From positions 17,485 through 81,484 of the forward strand of contig CAINGK010000185.1 in the NCBI GenBank assembly GCA_903848465.1: 64,000 nucleotides of DNA, in the 5' to 3' direction. This DNA is from an uncultured Verrucomicrobiota bacterium. GTDB taxonomy: Bacteria > Verrucomicrobiota > Verrucomicrobiia > Verrucomicrobiales > Verrucomicrobiaceae. Shown piece after piece: positions 2,749 through 51,960 of this stretch. How positions within the stretch are numbered: the stretch's first letter is position 1; each line of letters starts with the position of its first letter. Both the position numbers and the translations under genes were made by a program. A model generated the notes under the pieces. It was not told where the DNA came from. It made no database searches and worked only from the letters and a program-made list of their open reading frames with translations.

Positions 2749-3728
2749 CGGGGGACAGCGCCAATACCGGGACGGTTTGGCATGATGAGGTTGCCAGTGG
2801 CATCATAGGTGATGCCGGTGAAGTCGTCATTGGCGACGTAGAAATGCCCGTCCAGGTCGATCCAGTCGGCCCACGGTGCCAGGTGCGCCGCCGCCGTGGT
2901 GCCCAGGCTGGTTTCGATCATGCAGCCCAGGAGGATTTGCAGACTGTGCTCCCGCGCTGTCGCGATCATCGCCACCGCCGCGTCCAAGCTGCCGCTCTTG
3001 AGCAGCTTGATGTTCACGCCATCCACGAAATCAGCCAGAGCAATCACATCGGCCACCGTCTGCATGCTTTCATCAGCGAAGATCGGCGGCGGATTGCCCG
3101 GCAGCAGCGCCCGCAGTTCTTCCCAGCCATCGACACCAAGGCGGTGGTGGATGGGCTGCTCGATAAGCGTCGGACTGTATTCCGCGAGCTTCTCGATCAT
3201 CAGCGGAGCTTCGGCCATGTCCCAGCCGCCATTCACATCCAGCAGCAGTTTCGCATGAGGTGCCGCATAGCGCGCGACGGAGACGATGGCGATGTCCAGT
3301 CCCAGATCACCAGAACCGAGCTTGAGTTTGAGCACGGGAAACTGCTGCGCAATCTCGCTCACCTTGTCCGCAAAGACGTCGAGATCCTCGGGAATGCTGA
3401 AGGAGCGGCAGCCAGGCGGAGTAGGACGCAAAGGCGCGCCCAGCTTGGACTGCGCGTAAGCCGCCAGGGGCTGGCCCGTCTCGTGGCCGATGATGTCATG
3501 GCGCAGCAGATTGAGCGCCAGGCCAGCGGTGCGCGGCAGCACTTCCGGCAGCACCGCTTGATTGACCACCGCCAGCGTCGCCGCTGGATCTTCACCATAA
3601 TACGGCACAAACGGCGCTTCCGTCACGCGTTCACCGTTCGTGGCGCGCAGCACCTGACGCGTCGCGGAGGTGCCATGGGCGATGCGAAACGGCTCGTTGA
3701 GAAGAAGGGTTTTGATCTCGAAGTGCAA
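2745..3728 (-). CDS. Dipeptide epimerase (mandelate racemase/muconate lactonizing enzyme superfamily)
   Basis: 327 aa; KLKLG, LLLDVNGGWD, IEQP, FADES, NIKLLKSG, LGCMIETSLG motifs of L-Ala-D/L-Glu epimerases; stop overlaps the next gene's start (ATGA). Confidence 0.85.
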   Translation of the reverse strand: MHFEIKTLLLNEPFRIAHGTSATRQVLRATNGERVTEAPFVPYYGEDPAATLAVVNQAVLPEVLPRTAGLALNLLRHDIIGHETGQPLAAYAQSKLGAPLRPTPPGCRSFSIPEDLDVFADKVSEIAQQFPVLKLKLGSGDLGLDIAIVSVARYAAPHAKLLLDVNGGWDMAEAPLMIEKLAEYSPTLIEQPIHHRLGVDGWEELRALLPGNPPPIFADESMQTVADVIALADFVDGVNIKLLKSGSLDAAVAMIATAREHSLQILLGCMIETSLGTTAAAHLAPWADWIDLDGHFYVANDDFTGITYDATGNLIMPNRPGIGAVPR

Positions 3729-3837
3729 GGCGCGCAGTCAAAGGTCAGGTGGCCACAAGGTCAAGGAATCCTGTGTCGATCTTCTCTTTCTGCACTCTGG
3801 GTCTGAGCGCGTGAGCATGCAGTAGGGATTCAAAGAA

Positions 3838-3937
3838 TGCGGCAGGAAGCTCCAGCACCCACTCAGGCGCGGAGCGTCGTGGAGTGCGGTGACAGAGATG
3901 CACGGCGCAAGCCTGCATCGGCGGCACCGCTTTCGAC
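3838..3937 (-). repeat. Dispersed repeat family B, single-arm copy
   Basis: GCGGAGCGTCGTGGAGTGCGGTGACAGAGATGCACGGCGCAAGCCTGCATCGGCGGCACCGCTTTCG is the reverse complement of the right arm of the copies near 31.6 kb and 58.9 kb. Confidence 0.8.
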
Positions 3938-4094
3938 GTGCTGATCGTCTCACTCATACCTCGATTTGTTCGAAGGCGGGAGCCGGTGGACTTCCTCCAG
4001 CCGGTCAGCACACGTGCGCCACGAGACGTTCAAAAGCGGCAGCTTCACCCTTTCAGGGTTGCGCAGCCGCACTCCAACAGCGCTGCCCCACCCC

Positions 4095-14839: not shown

Positions 14840-15196
14840 ATGAAACCCGCCTTCCACTCCATCACTCCCCTGATTCCCACCTGCGGCAGCCTGGCGGAGT
14901 CGCTCAGCTTCTACACCGATCACATGGGCTTCTCCATTCTCTGGCAGGGCGAGGGCATGGCCGGCATCGAGCGCGACGGCGTCTCCCTCAACCTCGTCGA
15001 GAACGACAACCAGAACTGGGCGGACAACGCGAGCTTCAGCATTGGCATCTCCGATCTTGAGGCCCTCTACGATGAGTATCGGGCGATCCCGGCCAAGGTC
15101 GGTCCGCTCGAACTCAAACCGTGGGGGCGGCGCGAGTTTCATCTCATCGTGCCGTCAGGTGTGTGCTTCCAGTTTTACCAGCGTGCAGCAGCCTGA
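14840..15196 (+). CDS. VOC/glyoxalase-bleomycin resistance family protein, copy 1
   Basis: 118 aa; SLSFYTDHMGFSILWQ, DGVSLNLVEND, REFHLIVPSGVCFQFYQ. Confidence 0.85.
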   Translation: MKPAFHSITPLIPTCGSLAESLSFYTDHMGFSILWQGEGMAGIERDGVSLNLVENDNQNWADNASFSIGISDLEALYDEYRAIPAKVGPLELKPWGRREFHLIVPSGVCFQFYQRAAA

Positions 15197-15578: not shown

Positions 15579-15935
15579 ATGAAACCCGCCTTCCACTCCA
15601 TCACTCCCCTGATTCCCACCGGCGGCAGCCTGGCGGAGGCGCTCAGCTTCTACACAGACCACATGGGCTTTTCCATTCTCTGGCAGGGCGAGGGCATGGC
15701 CGGCATCGAGCGCGATGGCGTGTCCCTCAACCTCGTCGAGAACGACAACCAGAACTGGGCGGACAACGCGAGCTTCAGCATTGGCGTCTCCGACCTTGAG
15801 GCCCTCCACGATGAGTATCGGGCGATCCCGACCAAGGTCGGTCTTCTCGAACTCAAACCTTGGGGACGGCGCGAGTTTCATCTCATCGTGCCGTCAGGCG
15901 TGTGCTTCCAGTTTTACCAGCGCGCAGCCGCCTGA
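15579..15935 (+). CDS. VOC/glyoxalase-bleomycin resistance family protein, copy 2
   Basis: Differs from copy 1 at 6 of 118 residues by direct comparison. Confidence 0.85.
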   Translation: MKPAFHSITPLIPTGGSLAEALSFYTDHMGFSILWQGEGMAGIERDGVSLNLVENDNQNWADNASFSIGVSDLEALHDEYRAIPTKVGLLELKPWGRREFHLIVPSGVCFQFYQRAAA

Positions 15936-31735: not shown

Positions 31736-33220
31736 TCAATCCTCCCGAAACTCCGGCACTCTTCTCGCCTGCATCATCAACTCAAACGCATGCCCCAGCG
31801 CCAGGATGCGTGTATCCGCATGCGCCGTCCCCATGAAGGAAAAGCCCACGGGTAGTCCCTCCACCATACCCAGCGGCACGGTGAGATGGGGATAACCCGC
31901 AACGGCGGCCGGAGTGCTGGCCACGCGCTCATCCGTGTCGCCAAGCGCCAGATCAATCCTGCCCACGGGATCATTGGTGGGGCAGATCAAAGCATCGAGC
32001 TGGTGCGCTTGCAGCGCGGCCTCGATGCCCTCCGGTCCGGCAAGCCGACGCGCGTTCTCACGGGCAGCTGCACCAGCGGCGATGATCTCTGGCGTTCTCA
32101 TCTGTTCAGCCCGCTCAAAGAATTCCTGGCCAAAGTGCGACATCTCCTCGGTACGATGCTGCTCATTGAAGGCGATGAGTTCCGCCAGCGAGCGTACCTC
32201 GCCACCGCGCTGTTCGAGATAGGCATTCAAATCCACGCGCAGCTCGATCAGCATGGCTTGCCACGCGAGCGCACCGGCTTTGCCCATGTTCGGCAACTCC
32301 ACCGGATCGACAATGATCGCCCCCGCCGCGCGCAACTTCTCCAGCGCCGTTTCAAACAGCGCCAGCACCTGCGGATGTTTGCCACATTCACCGCGCACCA
32401 CGCCGAGGCGTGCGCCTTTGAGTGCTTCCGGTTGCAAATCGACGCTGAAATTCCCTGCGAGCACCTGCATCAGCAGGGCGGCATCGCGCACGGTGAGCGT
32501 CATAGGACCTGCTGTGTCCTGCCAGTGGGTAATAGGAATGATGCCGCTGCCGCTGATGAGGCCCACGGTGGGTTTGAAACCCACGATGCCGCAGGCGCTC
32601 GCGGGGCTGACGATGGAGCCGTTCGTCTCCGTGCCGATGGCTGCCGGTGCCAAGCCTGCGGCCACAGCAGCGGCAGAGCCGGAGCTGGACCCGCTGGCGC
32701 TGTGCGTGAGCCGGTGCGGATTGCGCGTGAGACCACCACGCGCGCTCCAGCCGCTGGTGGAATTGGGCGAGCGAATGTTCGCCCACTCACTGAGATTGCT
32801 TTTGCCAAGAATGACGGCACCCGCCTCGCGCAAGCGACTCACGAGCGCGGCATCCCGCTGCGGCTTATGCCCACGCAGGGCCAGCGAGCCAGCGGTGGTC
32901 TGCATGGCATCCGCCGTTTCGATGTTGTCCTTGATCAGGATCGGCAGCCCGTGCAACGCGCCAGGTGGGCAAGCAGCGGCGAGAGTCCGCACCGCAGGGT
33001 TTAACTCCAGCACCGCATTCACGCGCGGGCCGGATTTATCAATCTGCGCGATGCGTTCGAGGCAATGCTCCACCAGCAGCAACGGCGTGGTCTGCCCCGC
33101 CTTCAGCATCGCCGCGAGATCGGTAAGAGTCGCAAAGGGCAGGGGAGCACGGTGCTGCGGCGCACACGCCGCCGGACACAGCGCTACGGCGGCAGATTGG
33201 AGCAGGCGGCGGCGGTTCAT
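31736..33220 (-). CDS. Amidase (amidase signature family, GatA-like)
   Basis: 494 aa; ILIKDNIETADAMQTTAGSLAL, SASGSSSGSAAAVAAGLAPAAIGTETNGSIVSPAS. Confidence 0.92.
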   Translation of the reverse strand: MNRRRLLQSAAVALCPAACAPQHRAPLPFATLTDLAAMLKAGQTTPLLLVEHCLERIAQIDKSGPRVNAVLELNPAVRTLAAACPPGALHGLPILIKDNIETADAMQTTAGSLALRGHKPQRDAALVSRLREAGAVILGKSNLSEWANIRSPNSTSGWSARGGLTRNPHRLTHSASGSSSGSAAAVAAGLAPAAIGTETNGSIVSPASACGIVGFKPTVGLISGSGIIPITHWQDTAGPMTLTVRDAALLMQVLAGNFSVDLQPEALKGARLGVVRGECGKHPQVLALFETALEKLRAAGAIIVDPVELPNMGKAGALAWQAMLIELRVDLNAYLEQRGGEVRSLAELIAFNEQHRTEEMSHFGQEFFERAEQMRTPEIIAAGAAARENARRLAGPEGIEAALQAHQLDALICPTNDPVGRIDLALGDTDERVASTPAAVAGYPHLTVPLGMVEGLPVGFSFMGTAHADTRILALGHAFELMMQARRVPEFRED

Positions 33221-33232
33221 TCGTGGCAGGGG

Positions 33233-34435
33233 CTAAGCTCCAGCGTAACGCCCCATAAACAAGATCAAGCCGGTGGCATCATGCTGCAGCACCCAGATGA
33301 AAGGATGGTTGGCAATGAAGCTGACCTTGCGGCGTCTGGGCGTACCAGGAGGTGCGGCGCCGAACGGATCTGCTGGGGCACTGGTGGCGGCAGAAGCTTC
33401 TGCGCCGAGTTCGTTGACCTCGATCATCGCTTCGTGTGAGACGTCGCTGATGAAATAGCCGCCGCTGGGCAGTCCCTTGGAAAGATCGGCCGTGACTGGC
33501 TCAAACAAGCGCTTCACTCCCAGTCCCTGCCAGAACCCTTTGAGACTGAGCTGCGTGCTGTAGCCAAACTTCGGCAGCACCAGATTCACGTCGCAGTCGG
33601 CGAGTCCGTTGCCTATCGCGCCCCAGCGCTCCTGCGTGAGCCCCGTTTCAATGTTCTTTCGGGCTTCTTCGTTGCGCGGCAGCAGCACCAGCAGACGGAC
33701 CTCATGGTCAGTCATAGGCATATCGAGATACTGCCAAGACTCAGCTTCGGCGTAGCCAAAGGCTCCCAGCGGCATGTGCATCATCGGCAGCAGGATGGCC
33801 CCCTGCTCAGGTGTCTGGAAGGCGCGTTGTTGGGTGAGTTTGGGCACAAAGGGATGCTGCCAGCGGCCTTTCAAATAGAGGGTGTTCACCGCGATGACGG
33901 AGTGCGCCGGATCTGAAAAAGAGGCTGGTCCGACAATCTGGGCAATGCGGCCCCGGGTCTTTTCGCGCACCCAGCGATTCACCGCTGCGGCGCAGGCGGT
34001 GGGACTGTCGGCGGGCAGCTTTTGCAGCGTCGCCCCGAAGGTGGCCTGGGCGGAGGTGAGGAAATCCGGTGCAAAGCTGGCCGGGCTTGCCGCCCACAGT
34101 GAGTGGGTCATTTCCATGGTCACGGAGCCGCGCTTCACCGTGCCAGCCAGCGAGGCGCGCAGGGCTTCGAGATCGGCGATCTCCTTGGCGGCACCGACGG
34201 TCTGATGGGCGAGCGCTGCGAGTTCCGTCTGAGTTTCGCCATTCGCCGCCGTCATGAGGAGTGCGGCGATCTGATGGGAACTGAAGGGCGAAAAGCAGAA
34301 GTTTCCCGGCGTTGCCTGACGGAAAAATTGAAACAACTCCAGTGCATGGGCATTGGCCGCCTTGGCTGCCATCTGCGGCTGCTGTGCAGGGCAGTTCAAT
34401 GCCAAAAGCAGGCTCAGAACAAAGAGGCGCATCAC
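33233..34435 (-). CDS. Serpin family protein (serine protease inhibitor), exported
   Basis: NFCFSPFSSHQIAALLMTAANGETQTEL, VNTLYLKGRWQHPF, hinge EVNELGAEASAAT, ANHPFIWVLQHDATGLILFMGR. Confidence 0.92.
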   Translation of the reverse strand: MMRLFVLSLLLALNCPAQQPQMAAKAANAHALELFQFFRQATPGNFCFSPFSSHQIAALLMTAANGETQTELAALAHQTVGAAKEIADLEALRASLAGTVKRGSVTMEMTHSLWAASPASFAPDFLTSAQATFGATLQKLPADSPTACAAAVNRWVREKTRGRIAQIVGPASFSDPAHSVIAVNTLYLKGRWQHPFVPKLTQQRAFQTPEQGAILLPMMHMPLGAFGYAEAESWQYLDMPMTDHEVRLLVLLPRNEEARKNIETGLTQERWGAIGNGLADCDVNLVLPKFGYSTQLSLKGFWQGLGVKRLFEPVTADLSKGLPSGGYFISDVSHEAMIEVNELGAEASAATSAPADPFGAAPPGTPRRRKVSFIANHPFIWVLQHDATGLILFMGRYAGA

Positions 34436-36891: not shown

Positions 36892-36964
36892 GGCTCGGTA
36901 GCTCAGTCGGTAGAGCAGGGGATTGAAAATCCCCGTGTCGGCGGTTCGATTCCGTCCCGAGCCA
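36892..36964 (+). tRNA. tRNA-Phe (anticodon GAA)
   Basis: Complete cloverleaf: acceptor GGCTCGG/CCGAGCC, D arm GCTCAGTCGGTAGAGC, anticodon arm GGGGA-TTGAAAA-TCCCC, T arm GGCGG-TTCGATT-CCGTC; CCA not encoded (ACCT follows). Confidence 0.97.
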
Positions 36965-37044
36965 CCTCTTGCGTTAAATGCATTGAGGTTGAAGGTTTTG
37001 ACCGCTGTTCAGCGGGATTTTGAGTTTTGGGTTCAGCGGTAAGT

Positions 37045-37275
37045 TCAGGAGAGTTGAATGTTTGCGATTTTCTTTTTTGGGTGGGTCGGTTCGAAAATGA
37101 GTCCTCCGGGGCGGACCTGCCAGGACATTGCCACATAGCCCATTTCATCTGTAATTTCAGCCCTGACGGTTGGATTGGTTGCGGCGTGCAAGGCAGCTCA
37201 CAAGTGATCCATGAGGGCACGCGATTTTTGTGTGGCGTCATCGACGTTGGTGAGTGTTTCTTGGTCAAGGCTCAT
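37045..37275 (-). pseudogene. Small coding frame with one in-frame TGA, downstream of and overlapping the ArdC/ImmA-like gene
   Basis: Minus strand: MSLDQETLTNVDDATQKSRALMDHL*AALHAATNPTVRAEITDEMGYVAMSWQVRPGGLIFEPTHPKKKIANIQLS*; start overlaps the upstream stop as ATGA. Confidence 0.5.
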
Positions 37276-38147
37276 GATTTGGTGAGTGACTTGGATTGCC
37301 GTTTTTTTGCTCTTAACCGGGCTGGCAGTTGACCCTTGGCCATTTCCTCAATGGCTCCTGCGGCCACGAGAATGGCATCCAGGCTGAACACGGGCAGGGC
37401 AGTGCCATCTTGAAGGTGACTCGATAAATAACTGGCGGAAGCAGGCATGACACGAAAGCGCTGGCATACGAGCCACGCCACCGCCTCGGCTTCCAGTTCT
37501 CTCGTTTTGAGGTCGAGAGTCGCCGGGCGTTCTGGCCACCATTCATCCTTGAGTCGTCCCAGATGCCCGCAGAAAAGATGTCCAAGTTCGTGGGCTATCG
37601 TGGCGAATTGCTGTGTGCGGGTATGAGTGGTGTTGAGGCTGATTTGGTAGCCAGTTTTGGTTCGTTGAATTGCTCCCGCCAGATTTGGGTGCAGCAGGTG
37701 GTTCTCGATGGTAATTCCCGCTCTCGTACACAGCCGGCGCAAACGGCTGAATGTTAATTCCGTCACCTCTCCATGCACGTCAAAGCTGCTTTTCATGGCC
37801 TCCAAGATTTCGCGGGGCAGTTCGCCACCTTCGGTGTCAGTGACGTCAAAAACGAACAGCACTGGACGCATGGGGGCAAGGATAACCAAAGGCCGAGCAC
37901 CAGCCTTGAGCGTGCGCTTGAGTTTCTGCCATTTCTCGGGAGGTGCCACAAAGAGCGCTTTTGAGTTCTGAATGTGCAACAGCAGGCAGTTGAAGGGAGA
38001 GTATGCTGGAAGGCGACGTGTGAATTCCAGCAAGGCCCTAAAACCAGCGCTAGTGGCGTAATTCAGAGCGCTGCGGATAAGCTGGTCGATGGCAGCAACT
38101 TTCGTATCCTCATCGGCTGTGGTAAATGGCAGTTCCGCTTGTTTCAT
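37272..38147 (-). CDS. ArdC/ImmA-IrrE-like metallopeptidase
   Basis: 291 aa; N-terminal YSPFNCLLLHIQNSKALFVAPPEKWQKLKRTLKAGARPLVILAPM...FDVTDTEG resembles the ArdC N-terminal domain; FATIAHELGHLFCGHLG is the HExxH zinc motif. Confidence 0.8.
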   Translation of the reverse strand: MKQAELPFTTADEDTKVAAIDQLIRSALNYATSAGFRALLEFTRRLPAYSPFNCLLLHIQNSKALFVAPPEKWQKLKRTLKAGARPLVILAPMRPVLFVFDVTDTEGGELPREILEAMKSSFDVHGEVTELTFSRLRRLCTRAGITIENHLLHPNLAGAIQRTKTGYQISLNTTHTRTQQFATIAHELGHLFCGHLGRLKDEWWPERPATLDLKTRELEAEAVAWLVCQRFRVMPASASYLSSHLQDGTALPVFSLDAILVAAGAIEEMAKGQLPARLRAKKRQSKSLTKS

Positions 38148-39661: not shown

Positions 39662-39939
39662 ATTAAACGCCTGGGGTAGTTTGCAAAGCGGCGTGTCCAC
39701 GAAGAAGTTTTGCACGAATTGAACCCGGGTTCCAGAGATGGGCGGCGTTTTTGATCCTATTGGAGTGGTGGAACTGGGGAAGACTTTAACTGTGGCGATG
39801 TTCGTTTTTGCCCTTTCATAACCCGGTGCTGAGGCAGATTTGTGCGGTTGGCTTTCGAGGCCTGTGTGGCGGTAGTTTTTAAACTGAATGCTTGGCAACT
39901 CAGAGCTTTTTGGAATTAAATTCTGATATGATTGAAAAA

Positions 39940-42900
39940 ATGCGCTCCATCGCCTTAGGATTTGTCTGGCTAGCCTGTGCCACGCTACGATCGCAGGATT
40001 TATCGGCGACTCTTTCCAGCATCGCGTCGGGTGCAGGCGCGCCGAAGGTGGTGTCGAAGGCGCTGGTGCCGTGGCTGGATGAGGCGGGCTTTGACCGCCT
40101 GAAGGAGGCGCTGGATGCCACCGCGCAGGCAAAGAAGCGCGGTGCGCCAGAATGGATGGCTATGGCCTGCGTGGAGGAGCATTTGCAGCGCCCGACGCAG
40201 GCGCTGTCGGCGTGGAAAAAAGCCTGCGCCAACCCGCAGAACACCTCGGCGCTGATGCAATTGGGGATGGCGCATGCGCTGGCGCGGCTGCGGCAGTTTG
40301 ATGAGGCGGTGAAGGTGCTGGAGGAGATGGATGCGACCAAGGCAGACGCGCACAGCGTGCAGGAGGCCGTCTTGCTGCTGCACAGCCTGGCCTCCGAGGG
40401 CGGGCAGCGTTCAGACAGGCAGACACTGCCGCAGCGCATGGCGGAGAAAAGACCCGACGATGCGGAACTCAAGCTGCTGTTGGCACGACTGGCGATGGAA
40501 CGAGGTTCCTCACCGGAGACGATACGCAGCGCCAAAGAAGCCCTGAGCCAAGCGAAGGATGCGCCGGCCAAGCTGGCCTGGCTGCTGGTGGTACTCGACA
40601 ATGAATTGCAGCAGGGCAAAAATCTGGAGGCCACGAAGGAAGCGCTGCAAGGTCTGGCGGAGACCCCGCCGAATTCGGAGGACGAATGGCAACTGCTGGG
40701 GCGGCTGACCCGTGCGCTGCAGATGAGAAATCGCAACCCGACCAAGGCGAACATGCTCACCGAGGCGGAGGTGGCCGAGCAGTTTAAAGACCGGCCCGCC
40801 GTGGTGCGCCGCATGGCTGCCTCCCTGCGTGCGGCCGGTGCCACGCCCGCCGCGCAAAAAGTGCTCGGCCTGCTGAAGGAAGACGCTGCGGCAAAGAAGC
40901 TGATCACTGACTGGCAGGAGGAGGACGGGAGCGAACCACAACCGACCGAGCGCCAGCGCATGGCCGCTGTGAGCAAGGTCGCAGACGCCGAAAAAATAGC
41001 GGTAGTTCCAGCCTGGCAGGAGGAAGTGCAGAAACTGGACGGCGAAGCCCGCTTGAAAAAACTGCTCGAATTATGGAAGGCGGACCCACGGGATCAGGCG
41101 GCGGCCTTGCAACTGATCGATCACTTCCTCGCGAACTACAACAACAGAAGGGAGGCGGAGATGCAACAGGTGGTCATACAAACGCATTTTGCATGCGCGG
41201 ACAGCATCGCTCGGCAGACCTGGTGGCGACAGCTCGCCCGGAAGCGCTCACTCAGTGGTTATCAGGCGATGCAATGGTGTCAGTCCATGCGATGGGACAT
41301 GGGCGAAAAAGCCGACTGCTGGGAAGCGCTGGCACTCACTCAGCGGGATTCCTTCCTGTCGCCCTTGCGTGAGGCGGTACGCCTAGCGCCCGATAACGAA
41401 AGAACGAAAATGGATCTGGCCAGGACGCTTTGGCGCAATGGCTACTTGGCAGACTCACTGCGCCAGCTTGACGGGATGACGACCCCCCATGGGCAGGCGG
41501 CTGCGCGTTTGGAGATTGCAGTCATGGATCTGTTCAAGGGGCGGCCGCATGCGGCGACACGTACGATGTTTGAACTAGCGGGCCATGAAGCTCTGGGTGA
41601 AGACATGGCAACGACGCTGAGCGCCGGGCTGATGGCGTGGCGCGAGTGGGCGGATGCTGTAGATTTTTTGGCCTCACAACGACAGCGGTTTCCTGCAAAT
41701 TACCGACTGGCGGCTCTTCACGGACTGGCGCTGCAAGGCGCTGGTGAGCAAAACAAGGCGGGCGAGGTGTTCCTGAAGATGGGCGAATTTGTGCAGGAAA
41801 TCTCGCCGACGCCGGACGACGAATTTTATGAGGAAGTAGAACGAAGCATGCGAAGAGGTCCCCGAGCTTACGCCTCTGGGGATGGCCTGCTGGAATGGAT
41901 GCAACTGCAGGAGGCCGTCAGCAACATGCAGCAGGAAGCCCTGACGATGAAGCAATGGATCGCGCAGCAGCAGTACAGACTGGCCGGTTATTCCCGCCCC
42001 CTGCTGACACTGCAGACGGTATCCCAAGCCGCAGCCTGGGGCATGGCGCATCTGTTTGCCATGGTGGCCGAGCAGCCCGAAGCGGAGCGCCAGGCATGGG
42101 TGGAGAAGGCGCGCACGTCAAAACTGCCGATGCCGGAGCTGCTCGTGGCAGGCAAAATCATCCAGGAGAAAGACCAGCGTTCACGGCTGACACTTGACCC
42201 AGCATGGATCGAAAAACATCTGGATCTGCCCTGGGTCGGACCGCTCTGGCTGCAACAGGCCGCTACGCAACAACCGCCCAAATCCGTCGAGGTGGCGCTG
42301 GCATTGAAGGTGTCACGAGCCACTTTGGAAACCCATGTCTTCACCGCGCTGAGAGCGGCACTGCTGGCCTGGCGTGTCACGCCGCAGGACCCCGCCGTGC
42401 TTGATGCCGTGATGACGGCGTTGGCTCACGGCAAGCCGGAGGACGCAGCCGAGTTGATCGCTCAAACGAGATCTGACCTGGGACAGATCCCGTTGGAGGC
42501 ACGGCGCAAAGCGGCACCCCAGTTGATCGAGGTGCTAATTTCCCTATCGCAAAAAATCACTGACGATCCAGACCGCCATCGAGTACATCAGGAACTGATA
42601 CAGGGCGCACTGTGGCTGGGTGCATGGGAGGCAGCGGCGCAGCAGGCTGAAGCGGCGCTGGCCTCCAGACCAGCCTCACTGGCCGGAGACGCGGCGGATG
42701 CAACCCATTCCCTGAAAGCGCAGGCCGAGAGACGACTGACATATCCCACTGCCGTTCTGTCATGGCCGCCCCAGAATGGCAGTGAATTCTGGCCCTATTT
42801 TTCCATGGCTTCAAAGGACGGGGAAGAAGCTGTGATTATTAAGGCGGAGGAGAAAGCCGCATTCCTAGCTGCTGGATCGAAGATCCAGGACTGGCGCTTG

Positions 42901-45900
42901 AAATTGCAGTGGCATCTGCTTGGCGGCGACCAACCCGGTGCGAAAAAGGTGGTGTCAGCATGGCTTCAGGCGCAGCCGGTGAATCGTGACGCGGTGCTCA
43001 CAGCCGCCGGGCTGGCTGTAGCGGAGCAGGATCTGCCACGTGCGCTGGACCTTCTGCATGCACGAATGCAGGCGCAAAAGATACCCGAGGAACGGCTGGT
43101 GGCGCAGATCGACTACCTGCTGGCTGGCACTTATCATGGTGAACGCCCTTCCTTGCGTGAAAGCATGTCCCGGCGTGGAATCCAGACCACTGAGCAGCTC
43201 ACACCTCCTCCAGCGGCTCATCTCAAACGGCTGCGAAAAATCGCAGAAGACCTGCTCCCCCGGCTGCAAAAAATACCGCAGAGTTATCGCTCGCTGTGGG
43301 CGGCGATATACAAGGGACTGGGGCTACAGGCAGAAGCGGACACTCTGCGTGACAAGCCAAGACAGCAGCAAGAACCTCAAGCGGTACTCTGGAGCGGCAT
43401 GGACAGTGCGTATGTGAACCTCCTGGAACGCTCTATAGGCGAACGGGAGACCTCGGCATCCCCCAACGACATCTTATGGCTGCTTGAGCCCCAACAAGCC
43501 TCACCTACAGCACCGGCGGTGGAAGTGCTGGTGCGCTTTCTGCGGCACGAGGCGGACAAGCGGTTCTTCGGTTTGCAGGGAGACGATGGTCAGCTTGAAC
43601 AATGGCAGCGCATCATCCGGAAGAATGACCTAGCCAAGAGCGTGCTGGCGGCAGTCGATCCAGGCAAATCCCCCACCTGGCGGCGGCTGGCACAGGCGGT
43701 GCATGCGGCAGAGGCCTGCGAGGCCTGGGGGCAGGTGGTTGCCTGGGGTGCTGAGGCGCTCAAGCTGGATGCTGGCAGCCAAACCCTGAAGCTGGCCTTG
43801 GCCGCAGCACGGCTGCGGTCCAGCGGCGACCCCACAGCAATGGTAGAAGCATTCAAAGCACTGCCCCCCGCTGAAGCCTATCGCAACTTGAGCGCCCTGC
43901 TAAAAACGGCCCTGAAGACGGCGGACTTCGCTCAACGGCTGAAACTGGCCGAGGCGGTGGTGCGGCTGGCCGGGCAGCAACCAGCCATCATGTCACCCAC
44001 GGAGGAAGCCCGAGGTGAGGCGGTGACTGACACGTTTGCGCTGATTTCCGATGCCGTGAATGACCGTGAAGGGCGCAGCGTGGCCCCTGCGATCTACGGA
44101 GAATTAGCCCCTCGTCAGAATGCCAATCCCAAACAGCAGCCCTCGACCAACCCTGCCACCGCCGATCAACTGGAAACGCGAAAAAAACGGTTCGCAGAGT
44201 TATGCGACCTGTCCCTGAAACATCCAGAGTGGATGCGCGAGACGCTGCGCCGACTGGTCACACGCCATCTGGTGGACGGGCAGCCGGAAGCATCGGTGCT
44301 GGTGGAATACATCAAGCAGGGGCTGGCCGCACAGCCGCAGCAAAAGCAGTCTTACTTCAATGCGTTTGCAGGCTTGGGACTGAACCTCAAAGACGGGAGC
44401 ATGCGGCTCCGGCTGGCACGGCTGGCCTTGCAGCAGCTCGACACCATCTATGACGACCCCAAGCGCCAGATCCACCAGGACTCAGAGTCGAGCAATTTGG
44501 TTCAACTCATCGGCGGTGAGATTCTCGGAGCGAAGCATCCGCCTCTCTGGGCCTTGTGGGAATGCCCGCTGGACGCGATCACCGGCCAGTACCAGCACAC
44601 GCCGGAACAACTGGCGCTGAACAAAGAGCGCCGTGAACTGATGGATCAGTTGTGGCAGGCCTCGGAATCGCTGCCACAGTTGCGCCGGCAGTTGTTTCCC
44701 ACCTGGGCAGGATACCGGCTGCACTTCGTGGACAAGATGGATGAAGTGCTCGCGGTGGCGCGCACCCTGAACGATGCGCCCAATGCTCGCTCCCTGCTGC
44801 GTGATTTTGTGGACAAGGCGGTGCAGTCCTATGAAAACCCACACCATGTTCTTGCCGCAGAGCTGGTAGAGGCGCTGCTGCATGACCAGTCGTCCAATCT
44901 CAAGCCCGAGGAGATGGCGGAACCGGTCAGCCAAATCATCCGCGTCCTGACCCTGGGACGCAATAACCAGGCGGACCCGATGCCCCCGCTCTCCGCCACA
45001 CCCGAGGAGGCGGAAAAACTCCTCAGCCTGGACCTGCAGCAAAGACGGCGTGCCGTGCTCTCACGGCTCACGGAGCTGCTGGGCAAAGACTACGCCACCA
45101 CACCCGAATTGATTTTTGCCCAGTTTGAAGAGGCGCTGCGGCAGAACAAGGACGTGAAGAAAATCACACGGGACATCGTCAAACAGTCTGAACGCCAGCC
45201 GCAGCAGATGCGGCAGGCGCTGGTGGCGTTTATCCAAGCTGGCAATGGCAAGCATCTGAGCCGTGGCCAAACGAACGGCTACAGCGGCGGTGTCTGGCAG
45301 CTTGACCTGAGGCTACGCTGGTTCTCCGCCACGCTCGAACTGGGCAAACAGTTGATGAAAACCGATGCCAAGGAGGGTGAGTCCCGGTTCGAATGGCTGC
45401 AATACTGGATCATGGACCTGATCCAGCCCAACCTGCTGGCGGAGCCACCCGTGCCCCCGCCAAATGGGATGGAACCCGGGCATGGCGGAGTCTATGGCAG
45501 CACGGCGCTGCAATATGCCAAACAGCCGCTGCTCAAGAAACGTGACGAACTGCTCCTGACCGGCGTGGAGCTGGCGATGCAGCAGAGCGAACTCTGGTTG
45601 GATGAATTCCATGCCTATACGGCCCTCCAGATGGTACGCATGCCTCCTGGATCCCGGCAGATCATGGCCGTGCTGGACAAGCATTGTGCCAGCCGCCCGG
45701 AGCAGTATGTCACCGCCTTGAGGAAATGGACCGACAACGGTGCCTTCAAGTCCCTGGAGGCCCGACTGGCAGGCGCGGACATCATATTGAAGGCACTCGA
45801 TGCCTGGCCCAAGAACCAGGTGGCCGGTGATTTCCACCAGCCCATCGAAGATTGGCGGCGGGTGGTGCTGGGAGTTCACTGGTCGGGGAACGTACAGGAG

Positions 45901-48900
45901 GTCCCGCTGGTGCCGGACATGCCCTGGATGAGGGGCTACAATGCCTCATCGAATGACTGGGCGCTCAAACAACCGGGCGCGCGGGAGCGTCACGCGGCCT
46001 GGGTGCGTGTGGTGAACAAGGCGATGACGATTCAAGGCATGTCTGGTGCCGCCTTCAAAGATGCCGCTCAACTGCATGTGGCGAAAGAGCCGGAGAAAAT
46101 CATCGCGTCCGCCAGGAAATTCGCTCTCGAAGACTGGCACCGTGCCCAGTCCGATCTGGTGCAGCTCTTTGGCAACGAGGAAAGAAATGCCTCGATCGAA
46201 CGACGTGTGCAATGGGGCAAGCTGGTGATGAAACTGCTGCCGCTGGCTGCCGCCTTGGAGAAATATGCCCCGCAGGAATCCTACAAACCGACCTGGGTGG
46301 CGAACACGCTGAAGTACTTGCAGCAGTCGCCGTCGGACTCCTCAGGAGCCTTTCGGGCACCGCCACCCACGGTGGAAATTTTGGCTGAGCGGGAGACTTT
46401 GATCCAACAACTGGGAACCATGATCCTCGATGATCCAGGCATGGCGGTGGAAGGCTTGGTGAGTTTTGCCCACCAGCAGTTTGCCAAAGGAGCCACCCCT
46501 GAGGCAACGCTGGCGCTCGCCCGCAAAAGCATGAAGCATGATGCCGTGCAGTTGGGCCGGCAATTGAGTGAGTGGTGTTCCCAGGCGCTGACGCAAAAGG
46601 ATGTCACGAATGCTGAACGTCTCTGGTTCCTGCAGGTGCTGCTGCCGCTGGCGGAAGAATGGCCTCAGGAGACCTCCTCATGGCTGAATGGGGCGTCCTT
46701 GGTGATGAGTCAACTGGTGACCTCAGGCGTGACCACAGAATCGGTCAAACCGCTAGCGGACCGCCTTATGGACGCAGCCATGAAGCTGCCTCCCAACGGC
46801 CGAGTGCTGGTCAACTATGCTCGGTTGACTTGCTCCACGAAAGAAGGACAGCAGCAGCTCGCAGGGCGGCTGAACAAACTTCTAGCCACAGACCGCCAAC
46901 AGGCTGCCGCATGGATGAACGATTGGTGGAAGGCGGCTGGGCCAGGGGTGGCCATGCAGGTGGCGCAGCTCGCGCTGGACCTGCTGAAAGCCTGGCCGGC
47001 AGATGCTGATCCCAAGGAGCTGGAGTGGGGCGAAAGCTATGTGAAGACCTTTTCCGCGACTGCCAGAGCTCCCTACTTCAATGGAGGGTATCCCATGAAC
47101 AATGGCCAGAACCGGCGTATACCGCCCCCAGCCCCGAGTCTTGATGCCGACTTACGCCGTCTGCAACAAGAGGCTCTACAGGAACTGCGACGGCGCAAAG
47201 TGGACCAGCCCTGGATGCTGCCCCTGGAACTCCGCCTGGCAGGACACCCCACCCTGGAGCCCAAAACTCGCACCGATGGCCTGCGCACGTTTTTTGCCGG
47301 ACCAATGCTGACTCAAACGCTGGCCTACTGCACGGAAGTCACGGGCATTGACCTCGCCTTGGAAACAAGACGACACCCCACCGACATGGGCGGGCCGGTG
47401 TTCCCCGGCCAACAATTGCCGCCCCATGGTGATGCGAGTGAAATCCTGGATGTCACGCGCTGTCTGCTGACTGCTGCGCAGCAGGCTTGGCTGGGTGAAA
47501 CGGTGCTGAAACCCTTGCGGGAGAAATCCATCGAGCAACTCCCCCTTCTCATCAGCATGGCAGCCCGACGCAGCGAAGCCATGCGCCGCACGCCTTCCTC
47601 CTTCCACTTCGCTCCGCCGGGCGTGCTGGAGTCCCAGGGCACCGAGGCTCAGACGCTGCTGGATGCGTGGGATGCGATGACCGCCAAAGAGCCGAAGTCT
47701 GTCGTGACTCCCAAGGAACTGCCGCGTGAACTGCTGGCGCGTCTCAAGGCGGGGGAAAAGCCCGCTGTGCTGGTGGATGTCATCTGGAAGATGCTCTAAG
47801 AAGATCCTGCCGCTACCACGGCGGCGCTCAAGCTGTGGGCTCAAAGCTTGGATGACCACCAACAGCCGTTGCCGGTGTTTTTGGAAATGGGCCAGCTTGC
47901 CGCGCTGCTGGCGGAACGCTGGACAACGGCACAGCCTGTGCCCGAATGGCTGGTGGCGCTGATTCTGCGCTGGAATGAAGGTGCCTGGGCAGATCCCGCA
48001 GCCGCGAAAAGTGGCGCGCCAGCCCCAGGGGCCATGGCACGCGGTTTTCCACCCGGCTTTCCGCGCGGTGGTCCTCCCGGCTTCCGCGGCACACCACCGC
48101 GCACCCTACCGCCAGGGGAAATCGCCCAATATAAAATAGCGGAGAAACAGGTGAAGCCGCGTTTGGTCGCCGCGTTGCGCCGTTTTCCCGGCTGTACGGA
48201 TGTCGGCTTTTTTCAGGCGCTGGTGGCGGTGAATCAACTCGGCGAGGGCCTACCGCCGCAGGAACTCTCCCGTTTGGCACTGGCCCATCTTCAAGCCAGG
48301 CCGCACTCGATCCGGCGCATTATTCTGCCTTCCGCACCCGACAGCACCCCCGAGCGGTGGCAGGCCGCGCCGGTGTGGCAGGACGCGGTGGCCTTCCTCC
48401 TCGACCAAGCTCAGCAACGCGGGGAGCATGGTGAGCTGCCACAGGAGCAGAGCCAAATCATCCGCGCGGCGATCGAACCGGAAGCGAGAGGGTTTTATGA
48501 TGCCTTGGAAACGCTCGCCACTTGCACGGTGGCGGATTTTCCCAAGGCAGCAGCGGCGCTCGTGCTGGCCAACCCCGATTCACGGACGGCAAGCTGCGCG
48601 CTGTGGATACTTCGGTGTGCGGCGCATAAAAAGGCCCACATTCCAGCAGCGCTCTGGGTGGAAATCACGCGTATGAAGGAGAGTTTCAACGGTCGCAGCA
48701 ATCCAAACAACCAGCTTCCCATCGCACTCGCTTGGTTGCGTCAGCGAGCCAGCCAGAAAAAGAGCAACCCGCCGCAGGATGTTCGCGACCTGCTGCGCGT
48801 GTTGCTGGGCAGTGAGTACAGCCGGGAAAAAATGCAGGCTGCGCTGAAACACCCCTCGCGAATGACCTGGAGCGGCGCGTGGGAGGGCTGGCCGCTGGAA

Positions 48901-51900
48901 GGTGGTGGCATGCCCTACCAGGAGTGTCGGTGGGCCTACTACCTCATGGAAACCATGACCGCTGCCCCCGAGCTGTTCCCGACGAATCTTGAACTGGCTC
49001 ATGAATCGGGGCTGGCGCAGCACCCTGGGGTGCTGGCCTGGCTGATGATGGGATCACGCACCAGGGCCTGGTATCCAGGGTATGAAGGGCTCTGGCAGGA
49101 CTGGCTGGCGAAGAGCACGCTGCTCGATGACGAGGCGGTGCCTGACGCACGCTGGCTGCTGCCCCACGACGGGCTGGCTCCGGTGTGGGAGTTTGCCAAA
49201 GCTTGCGGCCTAGACTCACACTTCAAAACAGCGGCCTCCGCCTGGCTGCAGGAGCAGCAGACCAAGCAGCCCACCGTAGGCCGGGCGCTGCTGCTGCTGG
49301 CCTGCCAGCGCGGGTACAATGAGGACATTCCCGTGGCGGCCATTGAAGCCGCACTGGCTCCCTGCCGCGCCCAGTTGCAGAAAGCCTCAACGACCCGTCG
49401 CGCCGCGCTGACAGCCGCGCTGGGGGCATTGCAGCCAAGCCTGGAAGTGGCGGTGCAAGCGGCACCGCCCCAGAGCGTCTTGCATCTTTTGCCACCGGCC
49501 CCGGTGCCCCCCGAGCTGGAAGCTCTGGCACGGCGCTGGCTGTCAGGCGCTGGCATTCCCGCCTCCGATCCGACAAAGGATGTGCAGCAGCGACTTCAAC
49601 CGCTGGCAGCTATGATTCTGCGCCTGCTACAGGCAGGATACAAGCAGACGCCCGCCGTGATGGCGGCCGGCGTGAAAGCACTGGCTGCCGAAAAATGGGA
49701 ACTGCCGAATGTTGCGCCGCACCTGAGCACCGAGGTCTGGCTCCAGGAACATCTGGGGTTGGTGCTGCTGAATGCTGCAGGCGATATGTCCGGCTCCCGT
49801 TCAAACGGCAGAGTGACCGTCATCAGCGAAAGCAATGACGACAGCCGACGTCATCTGAAACTGCTGGTCCTCCGTTTTCTGCTGCAAAACTCCCGGCAGT
49901 TTACCAGCACACTGCTCTGCTCCAATTGGACCTCGATGGCCGACAACCTCTTCGGTGGAGCAAAGAAGACGGTCATGAATGGGGCGCAGCTCTCGGCTCT
50001 CTTCATGGGCATGCTGCCACCCAAGGATCATGGCGAGGCGCTGCTGGCGCTGAAAATTCTGGAACTCTATCCACCAAGCATGCCAGACTTGAAGCAACTG
50101 GCCGAGACCGCCAAGGAGCGCCTGCCTGGTAGCACGCTGGCCTGGGCCAGTCAGGGTGTCTTGCAATCGAGAAAAGCCACGCTCACTGGCACCCGTGCCC
50201 CTGTGCTGACGTTACCCATCGATTTCTACAATGATGAGTTCACTGCTAATGCAGCATTGCTTACAGCGATCTATCAGTCCAGCGCCCCTCCTCCTGCGCC
50301 ACTCCGTGTCCGTGCTCTGCAGGCATTGGCATTGCAGCCGTTGATCAACAGTCGCGATTTCCTGGAAGATCGGCTGGTTAATCACCCCTTGAAATGGCTG
50401 AATGAGGTTGAGGTCGATGCGCCGCTTAGCGCGGCGGCAGATGAAGCTGCTGCGGCGCTCACTCTTTGGATGCATCAGGACAACACTTATCATTTGGGCT
50501 GGTCCGCAGGATCTGAAGTCGGCCTCGGTCAGCGAGTCATCCGGCCGCTGCTGGCCGCGCTGCAACGTGCAGGCAGGCAGGAGCGCCGCGTGGAGCTGAT
50601 GCAGGCCGCCGCCGCCAAATCGCGGCTGCCGCTGGAGGTTCTGTTGGAGGAATGGCGTGCCGCCGCCAATGTGCCGCAGGCCGTGCGAGACTCGCTGCCG
50701 CTCTACTTCCATGAGAAGATGGATGAGCCTCAGACCTCGTGGGAATATGACGCCAAAGATCTGCCGCAGCTCACCCGCCAAGACGAGCCCTGGCTGGCCA
50801 GCCTCAGCCACGCTGCGGATGATCCACTGCCAAAACTCACCGCCAGCCTGGTGCTGGCCGCACTCCCGGATGCCACCGCTGACGCGCCAAAGGTGCCGCG
50901 AGCCGAGCGCGTCAAACAGTGCCTGGCGCTGCTGGATCTCAGCAAGCCCAATGAGGTGACCGCCTTGAACCGCTTCCTACGTGTGCCTGGTTACGCCGAG
51001 GATTTCCTGGCCGAACTGCTGCCACTGTTGCGCCAGCATCCCATCATTCTTGAATGGCAGGCGGGCATGCGATTGCCGGCGGAAATTCGGCGCAGCTCGG
51101 AGGCCTATCGGGACGCCCGGCGGCGCGCTAGAACCCTCACCCTGTGGGCTGCGGCTGAAGCTCTGCATGCCGCCAATCGCCAGCCATGGACTCAATTGAC
51201 TGCGGCAATCGTCAAGGCCTGCGCCGCCGAAGACGCCCTGGAAAGCACCGATCCCTATATGGCCAGAATGCGCCCTCCCGGCTTTAAATCGCCGCGCCTC
51301 TGGGAAATACACCCCTGCCAGACTGCTGGCCTCATCATCGACCACTACCTGGCGCAGAAGACTCTGCCACCTGCAGTGCTGCTGTCCATGTGGGATGAAT
51401 TGCGCGCCGTCATCACGGACATTCAGAGCGATGATGCTGGGACGGCGCTCGGAGTGCGTCTGGCACTCGCTATTGGCACGCCCAAAGGTGCCGAGTCTGC
51501 ACGCAAGCGCTTGAGCGGACTGACTTGCAATGTGCAAACCCTGCCGCGCGTGCTCGAATCGGCTGGCCTTTGCGGCTTGAATGCGCCTGAAAAATGGCGG
51601 GTTCTAAATGAGATCGCGCAGAACAGAATGGTGCGCTCCACCCTCCTGGCCACAGCCGTCAAAACGGGCTTTGTCACACCCGCCGAACTCTCCGGCATGA
51701 TCGGCCAACTGCCGCCAGCGGACAGTGCCGACTGGGCCGCCGCCGCAACCGACTGGCTTGATGCGACCGATGCCCGCACCGAATGCACCGCCTTCATCCG
51801 CAAGCTAGCCACCCTAGACTCCACCAAGCTGTCCCCATTAACCTGGCACTTGATGCTACAGCATGCCACAGCCCATGAAGCACCAGATCTTGCGGCGCTG

Positions 51901-51960
51901 CTGCAAACCCACTGGGAGAAAGCGGTAGCGGCAGCGGCCAGCAAAGCGGTTGGGGGATGA
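39940..51960 (+). pseudogene. Giant exported alpha-solenoid/TPR-like protein gene (~4,000 codons) interrupted by one in-frame TAA at 47797-47799
   Basis: ORFs 39892..47799 (2635 aa) and 47848..51960 (1370 aa) share a frame; intervening codons read KML*EDPAATTAALKLWAQSLDDHQQPLPVFLEMGQ with no second stop; signal peptide MRSIALGFVWLACATLRSQ; TPR-like helical pairs throughout. Confidence 0.8.

Follow-up and report, generated by a model that had tools for sequence, protein, structure and literature searches.

What does the giant coding locus in this stretch of DNA specify: one protein, two, or the shortened remains of one, and what might a product of such size do? The stretch (here called the window) comprises 64,000 nucleotides of contig CAINGK010000185.1, positions 17,485 to 81,484, from an uncultured Verrucomicrobiota bacterium whose assembly (GCA_903848465.1) totals 6.05 Mb in 237 contigs. 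A preliminary description of the window had reported a single reading frame of about 4,000 codons encoding an exported alpha-solenoid of tetratricopeptide repeat (TPR)-like helices. The giant coding region does occupy positions 39940 to 51960 of the plus strand, with homologs along its whole length, but the frame is not single: an in-frame TAA closes the first open reading frame (ORF1) after 2,619 codons, and the rest of the gene (ORF2) follows in the same frame. With a probability of roughly 0.5, we read the gene as an orphan, truncated paralog of a giant periplasmic TPR scaffold that elsewhere in the phylum (in the "sister giants" described below) would belong to a MoxR/VWA envelope system. 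The ancestry and anatomy of the gene are well supported; what we infer is a periplasmic location, a partnership with MoxR and VWA proteins, a role in the envelope, and whatever function the orphan itself may have.

Counted from the first start codon, frame 1 of the plus strand is open from 39892 to 47799 (2,635 codons) and again from 47848 to 51960 (1,370 codons), the two parts being in identical frame with a single TAA between them. An open region of this extent is far beyond chance, because random DNA of equal base composition is estimated to contain one stop per ~35 codons and because relatives retain the frame at 30 to 65% identity. Judged by its homologs, the pair ORF1 and ORF2 is one gene, since three relatives are open across the position of the stop: G031 (3,750 amino acids) and G028 (~3,820 to 3,885 amino acids) are colinear with both halves in a single open frame at ~30 to 38% identity, and G207 contributes a third frame of 1,601 amino acids that is bounded by contig ends. 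Such single-frame homologs rule out two unrelated genes, and the TAA rules out an intact gene of 4,000 codons in this assembly. ORF2 retains coding base composition; its first start codon is TTG, with no visible ribosome-binding site. The true start of ORF1 may be the ATG at 39928 (MIEKMRS) rather than the ATG at 39940, because the latter corresponds to a valine codon in one ortholog. Promoter and terminator scans of the flanks of the gene returned weak consensus matches only.

The product begins with a hydrophobic signal peptide, with a glutamine at or adjacent to the predicted cleavage site in most orthologs and sister giants, and has no second stretch long and hydrophobic enough for a membrane helix by a 19-mer threshold. 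The absence of a recognizable catalytic domain was borne out as well, as Pfam, NCBIfam, and PADLOC all gave no match above cutoff, and domain and hydropathy scans of the giant product detected no transmembrane domain and none for carbohydrate binding, proteolysis, adhesion, or sorting. PADLOC matched none of the proteins of the window, so anti-phage defense was set aside. Matches to MamA-like proteins (NF040959; 22 bits versus a cutoff of 200) and to PrsT (9.5 versus 312) reflected generic TPR character and were likewise rejected. A sequence search for a solved structure related to the giant returned none. The Pro/Gly-rich linkers previously noted are real, and one of them is an insertion that the relatives G028 and G031 do not have.

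AlphaFold2 (AF2) models of two tiles, residues 1 to 1150 and 2821 to 4006, were almost wholly alpha-helical, with mean predicted local distance difference test scores of 65 and 60, respectively. Foldseek related the N-terminal tile to generic TPR scaffolds, including Ski3, IFT-A, and a Campylobacter periplasmic flagellar scaffold, and the C-terminal tile, at low confidence, to HEAT/karyopherin/mTOR-like solenoids; template modeling scores were low for both, as is expected for flexible solenoids at such model confidence. The exported solenoid of the preliminary description thus stands in its fold class and its export signal and falls as an uninterrupted gene. TPR-like character from end to end survives in part: both tiles are helical and the N terminus is TPR-like, but the C terminus looks HEAT-like, and Pfam TPR matches are confined to the first ~140 residues, all below threshold (the best, TPR_19, at 17 bits versus 25). 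The sister giants pass the Pfam TPR cutoff (TPR_14, 67 versus 23.5).

These sister giants are a second set of giant proteins, exported TPR proteins of 2,600 to 3,900 amino acids traced from weak matches, that carry the N-terminal motif YHxMLLKRPQAG and form one family over most of their length (pairwise hhalign E < 1e-90). Built from their first 417 residues, a profile detected the family in 21 genomes out of a phylum-wide sample of 388, with nearly all matches lying within frames of 2,100 to 3,900 codons. Compared by hhalign, the strict family of the window gene (family A) aligned with sister subfamily C over residues 4 to 1435 (E = 3.7e-25, probability 99.7%) and with subfamily B at E = 1.5e-17; controls with reversed sequences were negative (E > 0.04). 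The same N-terminal profile of ~417 residues ("KRPQAG") matched the family A members G207 (7.6e-26) and G028 (1.8e-11) and had no match at 1e-5 in the genome of the window. Part of this similarity could be general TPR character; the colinearity, a W-L-[D/E] N-terminal cap common to family A and the sister giants, and the negative reversed controls argue for common descent of the N-terminal ~1,430 residues, and we hold the proposed ancestry and fold class of the giant to be highly probable. The phylogenetic range that the earlier reading had left to be found is twofold, the exact family occurring in 8 genomes of one genus and its N-terminal kin across the phylum. No description of the sister giants or their operon in Verrucomicrobia was found in the literature searched, in which the family appears to be undescribed. 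On three contigs (L052, G147:C27, and G430:C14), two giant genes lie close together.

Clustering of neighboring genes showed that the sister giants of 14 genomes from several families adjoin a conserved gene set. A protein of ~550 amino acids without a Pfam match was found near the sister giant in all 14, MoxR in 13, DUF58 in 12, a BatA-type VWA protein in 12, and a VWA/GATase1-like protein of ~835 amino acids in 9, some fetched loci stopping short of the last. Pfam confirmed the domains (AAA_3, 5e-64; DUF58, 1.5e-33; BatA, 7e-12; VWA, 6e-27; GATase1_like, 6e-20). MoxR-DUF58-VWA operons are widespread, and the RL3499-RL3502 (cmdA-D) operon of Rhizobium leguminosarum is of the MoxR/DUF58/BatA type. 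In its predicted domains, the sister-giant gene set matches the Bat and RL3499-RL3502 type of operon. The VWA and TPR proteins of Bat operons, with MoxR nearby, are proposed to build a periplasmic complex (PMC3557215), although work in Leptospira did not confirm an involvement in oxidative stress. The VWA domain of Borrelia BB0173 is exposed to the periplasm (PMC5700661), and the same source cites envelope defects in RL3499-RL3502 mutants and a TPR protein with an envelope role in R. leguminosarum. Near subfamily B giants in three genomes (L046, L048, and L053) lies a gene for an SBP-PAS-GAF hybrid histidine kinase of ~1,710 amino acids, and in three genomes (L087, L089, and L091) a sigma-factor-like gene and genes of ~840 to 1,080 and ~1,650 to 1,970 amino acids lie near the giant. 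The genome of the window itself has a separate Bat-like cluster (L116) with MoxR, DUF58, and VWA candidates, in addition to several other MoxR/DUF58 loci.

In the reading preferred here, the ancestral product would have been a protein of ~4,000 residues with a Sec-type signal peptide and a continuous alpha-solenoid, TPR-like over about the first third and HEAT-like toward the end. Placed in the periplasm, the solenoid would form an extended scaffold or docking arm gathering VWA and client envelope proteins, while a cytoplasmic MoxR ATPase would remodel the membrane complex, and the giant together with the MoxR/VWA system would help to keep the envelope intact or the cell tolerant of stress. 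In the lineage of the window, the gene would have left the operon and would be losing its C terminus, so that the expected product would be a scaffold of 2,619 residues. A periplasmic scaffold role is an even wager for the operonic sisters and less probable for the orphan of the window. The guess of a scaffold or periplasmic role made earlier gains indirect support from the homologous giants that adjoin MoxR-DUF58-BatA-VWA genes elsewhere, but the window gene has no such neighbors. More tentatively, the periplasmic part of a Bat-type MoxR/VWA envelope machine in Verrucomicrobiota may be a single alpha-solenoid of 2,600 to 4,000 residues, perhaps long enough to reach across the periplasm, with orphan copies freed from the operon and differing in length because C-terminal modules have been lost.

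Several results weigh against this picture. Neither the window gene, which lies outside any Bat or MoxR-DUF58-VWA neighborhood, nor the five family A loci with visible flanks (G012, G022, G028, G031, and G020) have a MoxR/VWA neighbor. The genome of the window yielded neither a sister giant nor a sister-giant operon, and has several distant MoxR/DUF58/VWA loci only. Using hhalign, residues 1450 to 4006 showed no significant homology to the sister giants. The AF2 models were built from alignments of 3 to 4 sequences, carry modest confidence, and cover the two end tiles, and gene adjacency is no proof of physical interaction. The subfamily C giants share with family A the lack of the MoxR/DUF58/VWA neighborhood.

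What the stop means can be weighed against length variation in family A, which at E < 1e-29 comprised 8 genomes of the samples searched, all in the Prosthecobacter-type genus of the window; the relatives there are labeled Prosthecobacter and Verrucomicrobiaceae. (One metagenome-assembled contig in this genus, L079, is titled Akkermansia muciniphila, a label that is probably wrong.) Colinear homology that includes residues 1716 to 4006 is present in G031 and G028 over both ORFs and in G207 across the stop; outside family A, no C-terminal module was found in 384 genomes of the class except for a marginal match at 1e-3. The closest orthologs, G012 (64% identity) and G022 (61%), both end at about residue 1715, and the remainder was searched for in both of their genomes and found in neither. 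Two further members, G023 and G020, end near residues 2560 to 2580; the gene of G020 starts at the equivalent of ~1300, carries a frameshift, and appears to have a signal peptide of its own. Because of these two pairs of shorter relatives, the alignments indicate that C-terminal length is variable in the family. Divergence was measured as the window-outgroup identity divided by the outgroup-outgroup identity with two outgroups, and the ratio was 0.92 before residue 1715, 0.72 for residues 1716 to 2619, and 0.75 for ORF2 (significant; bootstrap 95% interval of the difference before versus after 1715, 0.12 to 0.26). Given this drop, C-terminal constraint seems relaxed in the lineage of the window. 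There is no shift at the stop itself, ORF2 being no more diverged than residues 1716 to 2619, and because of this the stop would be either recent or an error. Each of the family A loci has different neighbors, which marks the gene as an orphan unit; no conserved operon partner was found, G028 and G031 having in common only an apt-like gene, a glnD-like gene, and one further gene.

The stop could be the natural end of a module in a solenoid of variable length, with a working protein of 2,619 amino acids and ORF2 unused. The members that end at ~1715 or ~2560 to 2580 and the faster divergence of the window sequence past 1715 are consistent with this, and we regard it as possible though not favored, as the gene of G020 is itself frameshifted and a long-established stop is made unlikely by an ORF2 that is still open for 1,386 codons, coding in composition, and not additionally diverged. 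Of comparable, likewise tentative, standing is an error of assembly or sequencing, or a rare strain variant, in a population whose gene is intact at ~4,006 amino acids: the assembly is in 237 contigs, one single-base change suffices to create the stop, and ORF2 has not decayed relative to the region upstream, but shortening in other family members makes a genuine stop plausible. The gene might also be a pseudogene, functionless and decaying in the lineage of the window, as the in-frame stop, faster evolution past residue 1715, loss of the whole C-terminal part in the closest relatives, patchy presence, and lack of conserved neighbors could suggest; this is unlikely given that the first 1,715 residues are 61 to 64% identical to two other species, with no frameshift and with the signal peptide retained. 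Two alternatives concern the giants as a class. Being exported and giant in a member of the Planctomycetes-Verrucomicrobia-Chlamydiae (PVC) superphylum, they might be weapons or adhesins, secreted or displayed on the cell surface, following the proposal for Omnitrophota giants summarized in PMC12057145; this is very improbable, for they have no carbohydrate-binding, protease, adhesion, transmembrane, or sorting domain, and the sister family adjoins MoxR/VWA genes, not secretion genes. Least probable by far is membership in a MoxR-vWA conflict (immunity) system. Such systems have been reported (PMC7159879), and the operon MoxR weakly matches bpMoxR (2e-11), but its match to ordinary AAA_3 is far better (5e-64), and the giant is exported and has no effector domain, with PADLOC again silent on the window.

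Features of the giant gene in the window, in order of position.
Feature	Positions	Strand	Basis or remark
Signal peptide MRSIALGFVWLACATLRS, predicted cleavage before Q19	39940..39993	+	Sequence and hydropathy
ORF1, 2,619-amino-acid open portion of the giant gene	39940..47799	+	ORF scan, homologs; alternative start 39928
N-terminal TPR-like solenoid, residues 4-1435, colinear with phylum-wide giants	39949..44244	+	hhalign, AF2 tile
Sole beta hairpin in N-terminal model, residues 738-752	42151..42195	+	AF2 tile
Codon 1715, approximate end of closest orthologs G012 and G022	45082..45084	+	
In-frame TAA stop, codon 2620	47797..47799	+	Sense codon at equivalent position in G031, G028, G207
ORF2, C-terminal remnant, 1,386 codons, frame of ORF1, HEAT-like helical	47800..51960	+	
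Pro/Gly-rich insertion, not in G028/G031	48010..48117	+	Alignment to relatives

Elsewhere in the window, near-identical tandem ORFs of 118 amino acids (MKPAFHSITPLIPT...) at 14840 to 15196 and 15579 to 15935 appear to be a recent duplication, and a bacterial serpin gene (33233 to 34435; Pfam Serpin, 6.6e-73) adjoins an amidase-family gene (31736 to 33220). A tRNA-Phe gene followed by an M78/IrrE-type peptidase gene occupies a stretch of lower G+C content at 36892 to 38147; integration of the giant locus at this tRNA as a genomic island was considered and rejected, as the sequence downstream showed no direct repeat of the end of the tRNA gene that resembled an att site.

The value of the window gene lies in the family to which it points. 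A giant exported solenoid tied across the phylum to MoxR-DUF58-VWA operons offers a concrete handle that could be tagged, localized, and imaged to find where the complex acts, and the range of 1,700 to 4,000 residues within family A shows the evolutionary shortening of a repeat scaffold.

Giant proteins are known from PVC bacteria (PMC12057145 and PMC11573180), and the giant of the window resembles those of Omnitrophota in being exported and in its superphylum. The Omnitrophota proteins run to tens of thousands of residues, with transmembrane helices and carbohydrate-active domains (PMC12057145), whereas the window giant has neither of these features and is a plain helical repeat. The resemblance to periplasmic TPR scaffolds, such as the Campylobacter flagellar motor scaffold, PrsT of the XrtA system, and the BcsC/PelB exporters, is that of exported TPR solenoids with a generic fold match; unlike the BcsC/PelB type, the window giant has no C-terminal outer-membrane beta-barrel, its C-terminal 1,186 residues being predicted to be helical. 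To our knowledge, no giant protein accompanies RL3499-RL3502 of R. leguminosarum, with which the likeness consists in a MoxR/DUF58/BatA-type operon and in an envelope phenotype and an envelope TPR protein of the species, the last two as cited in PMC5700661. The Bat operon differs in that its known TPR proteins are far smaller than giants of 2,600 to 4,000 amino acids, the sister giants are accompanied by an extra unnamed protein of ~550 amino acids, and the window gene stands outside any such operon. What the sister giants share with it is the arrangement itself, in which genes for exported TPR proteins adjoin those for MoxR, DUF58, and BatA/VWA.

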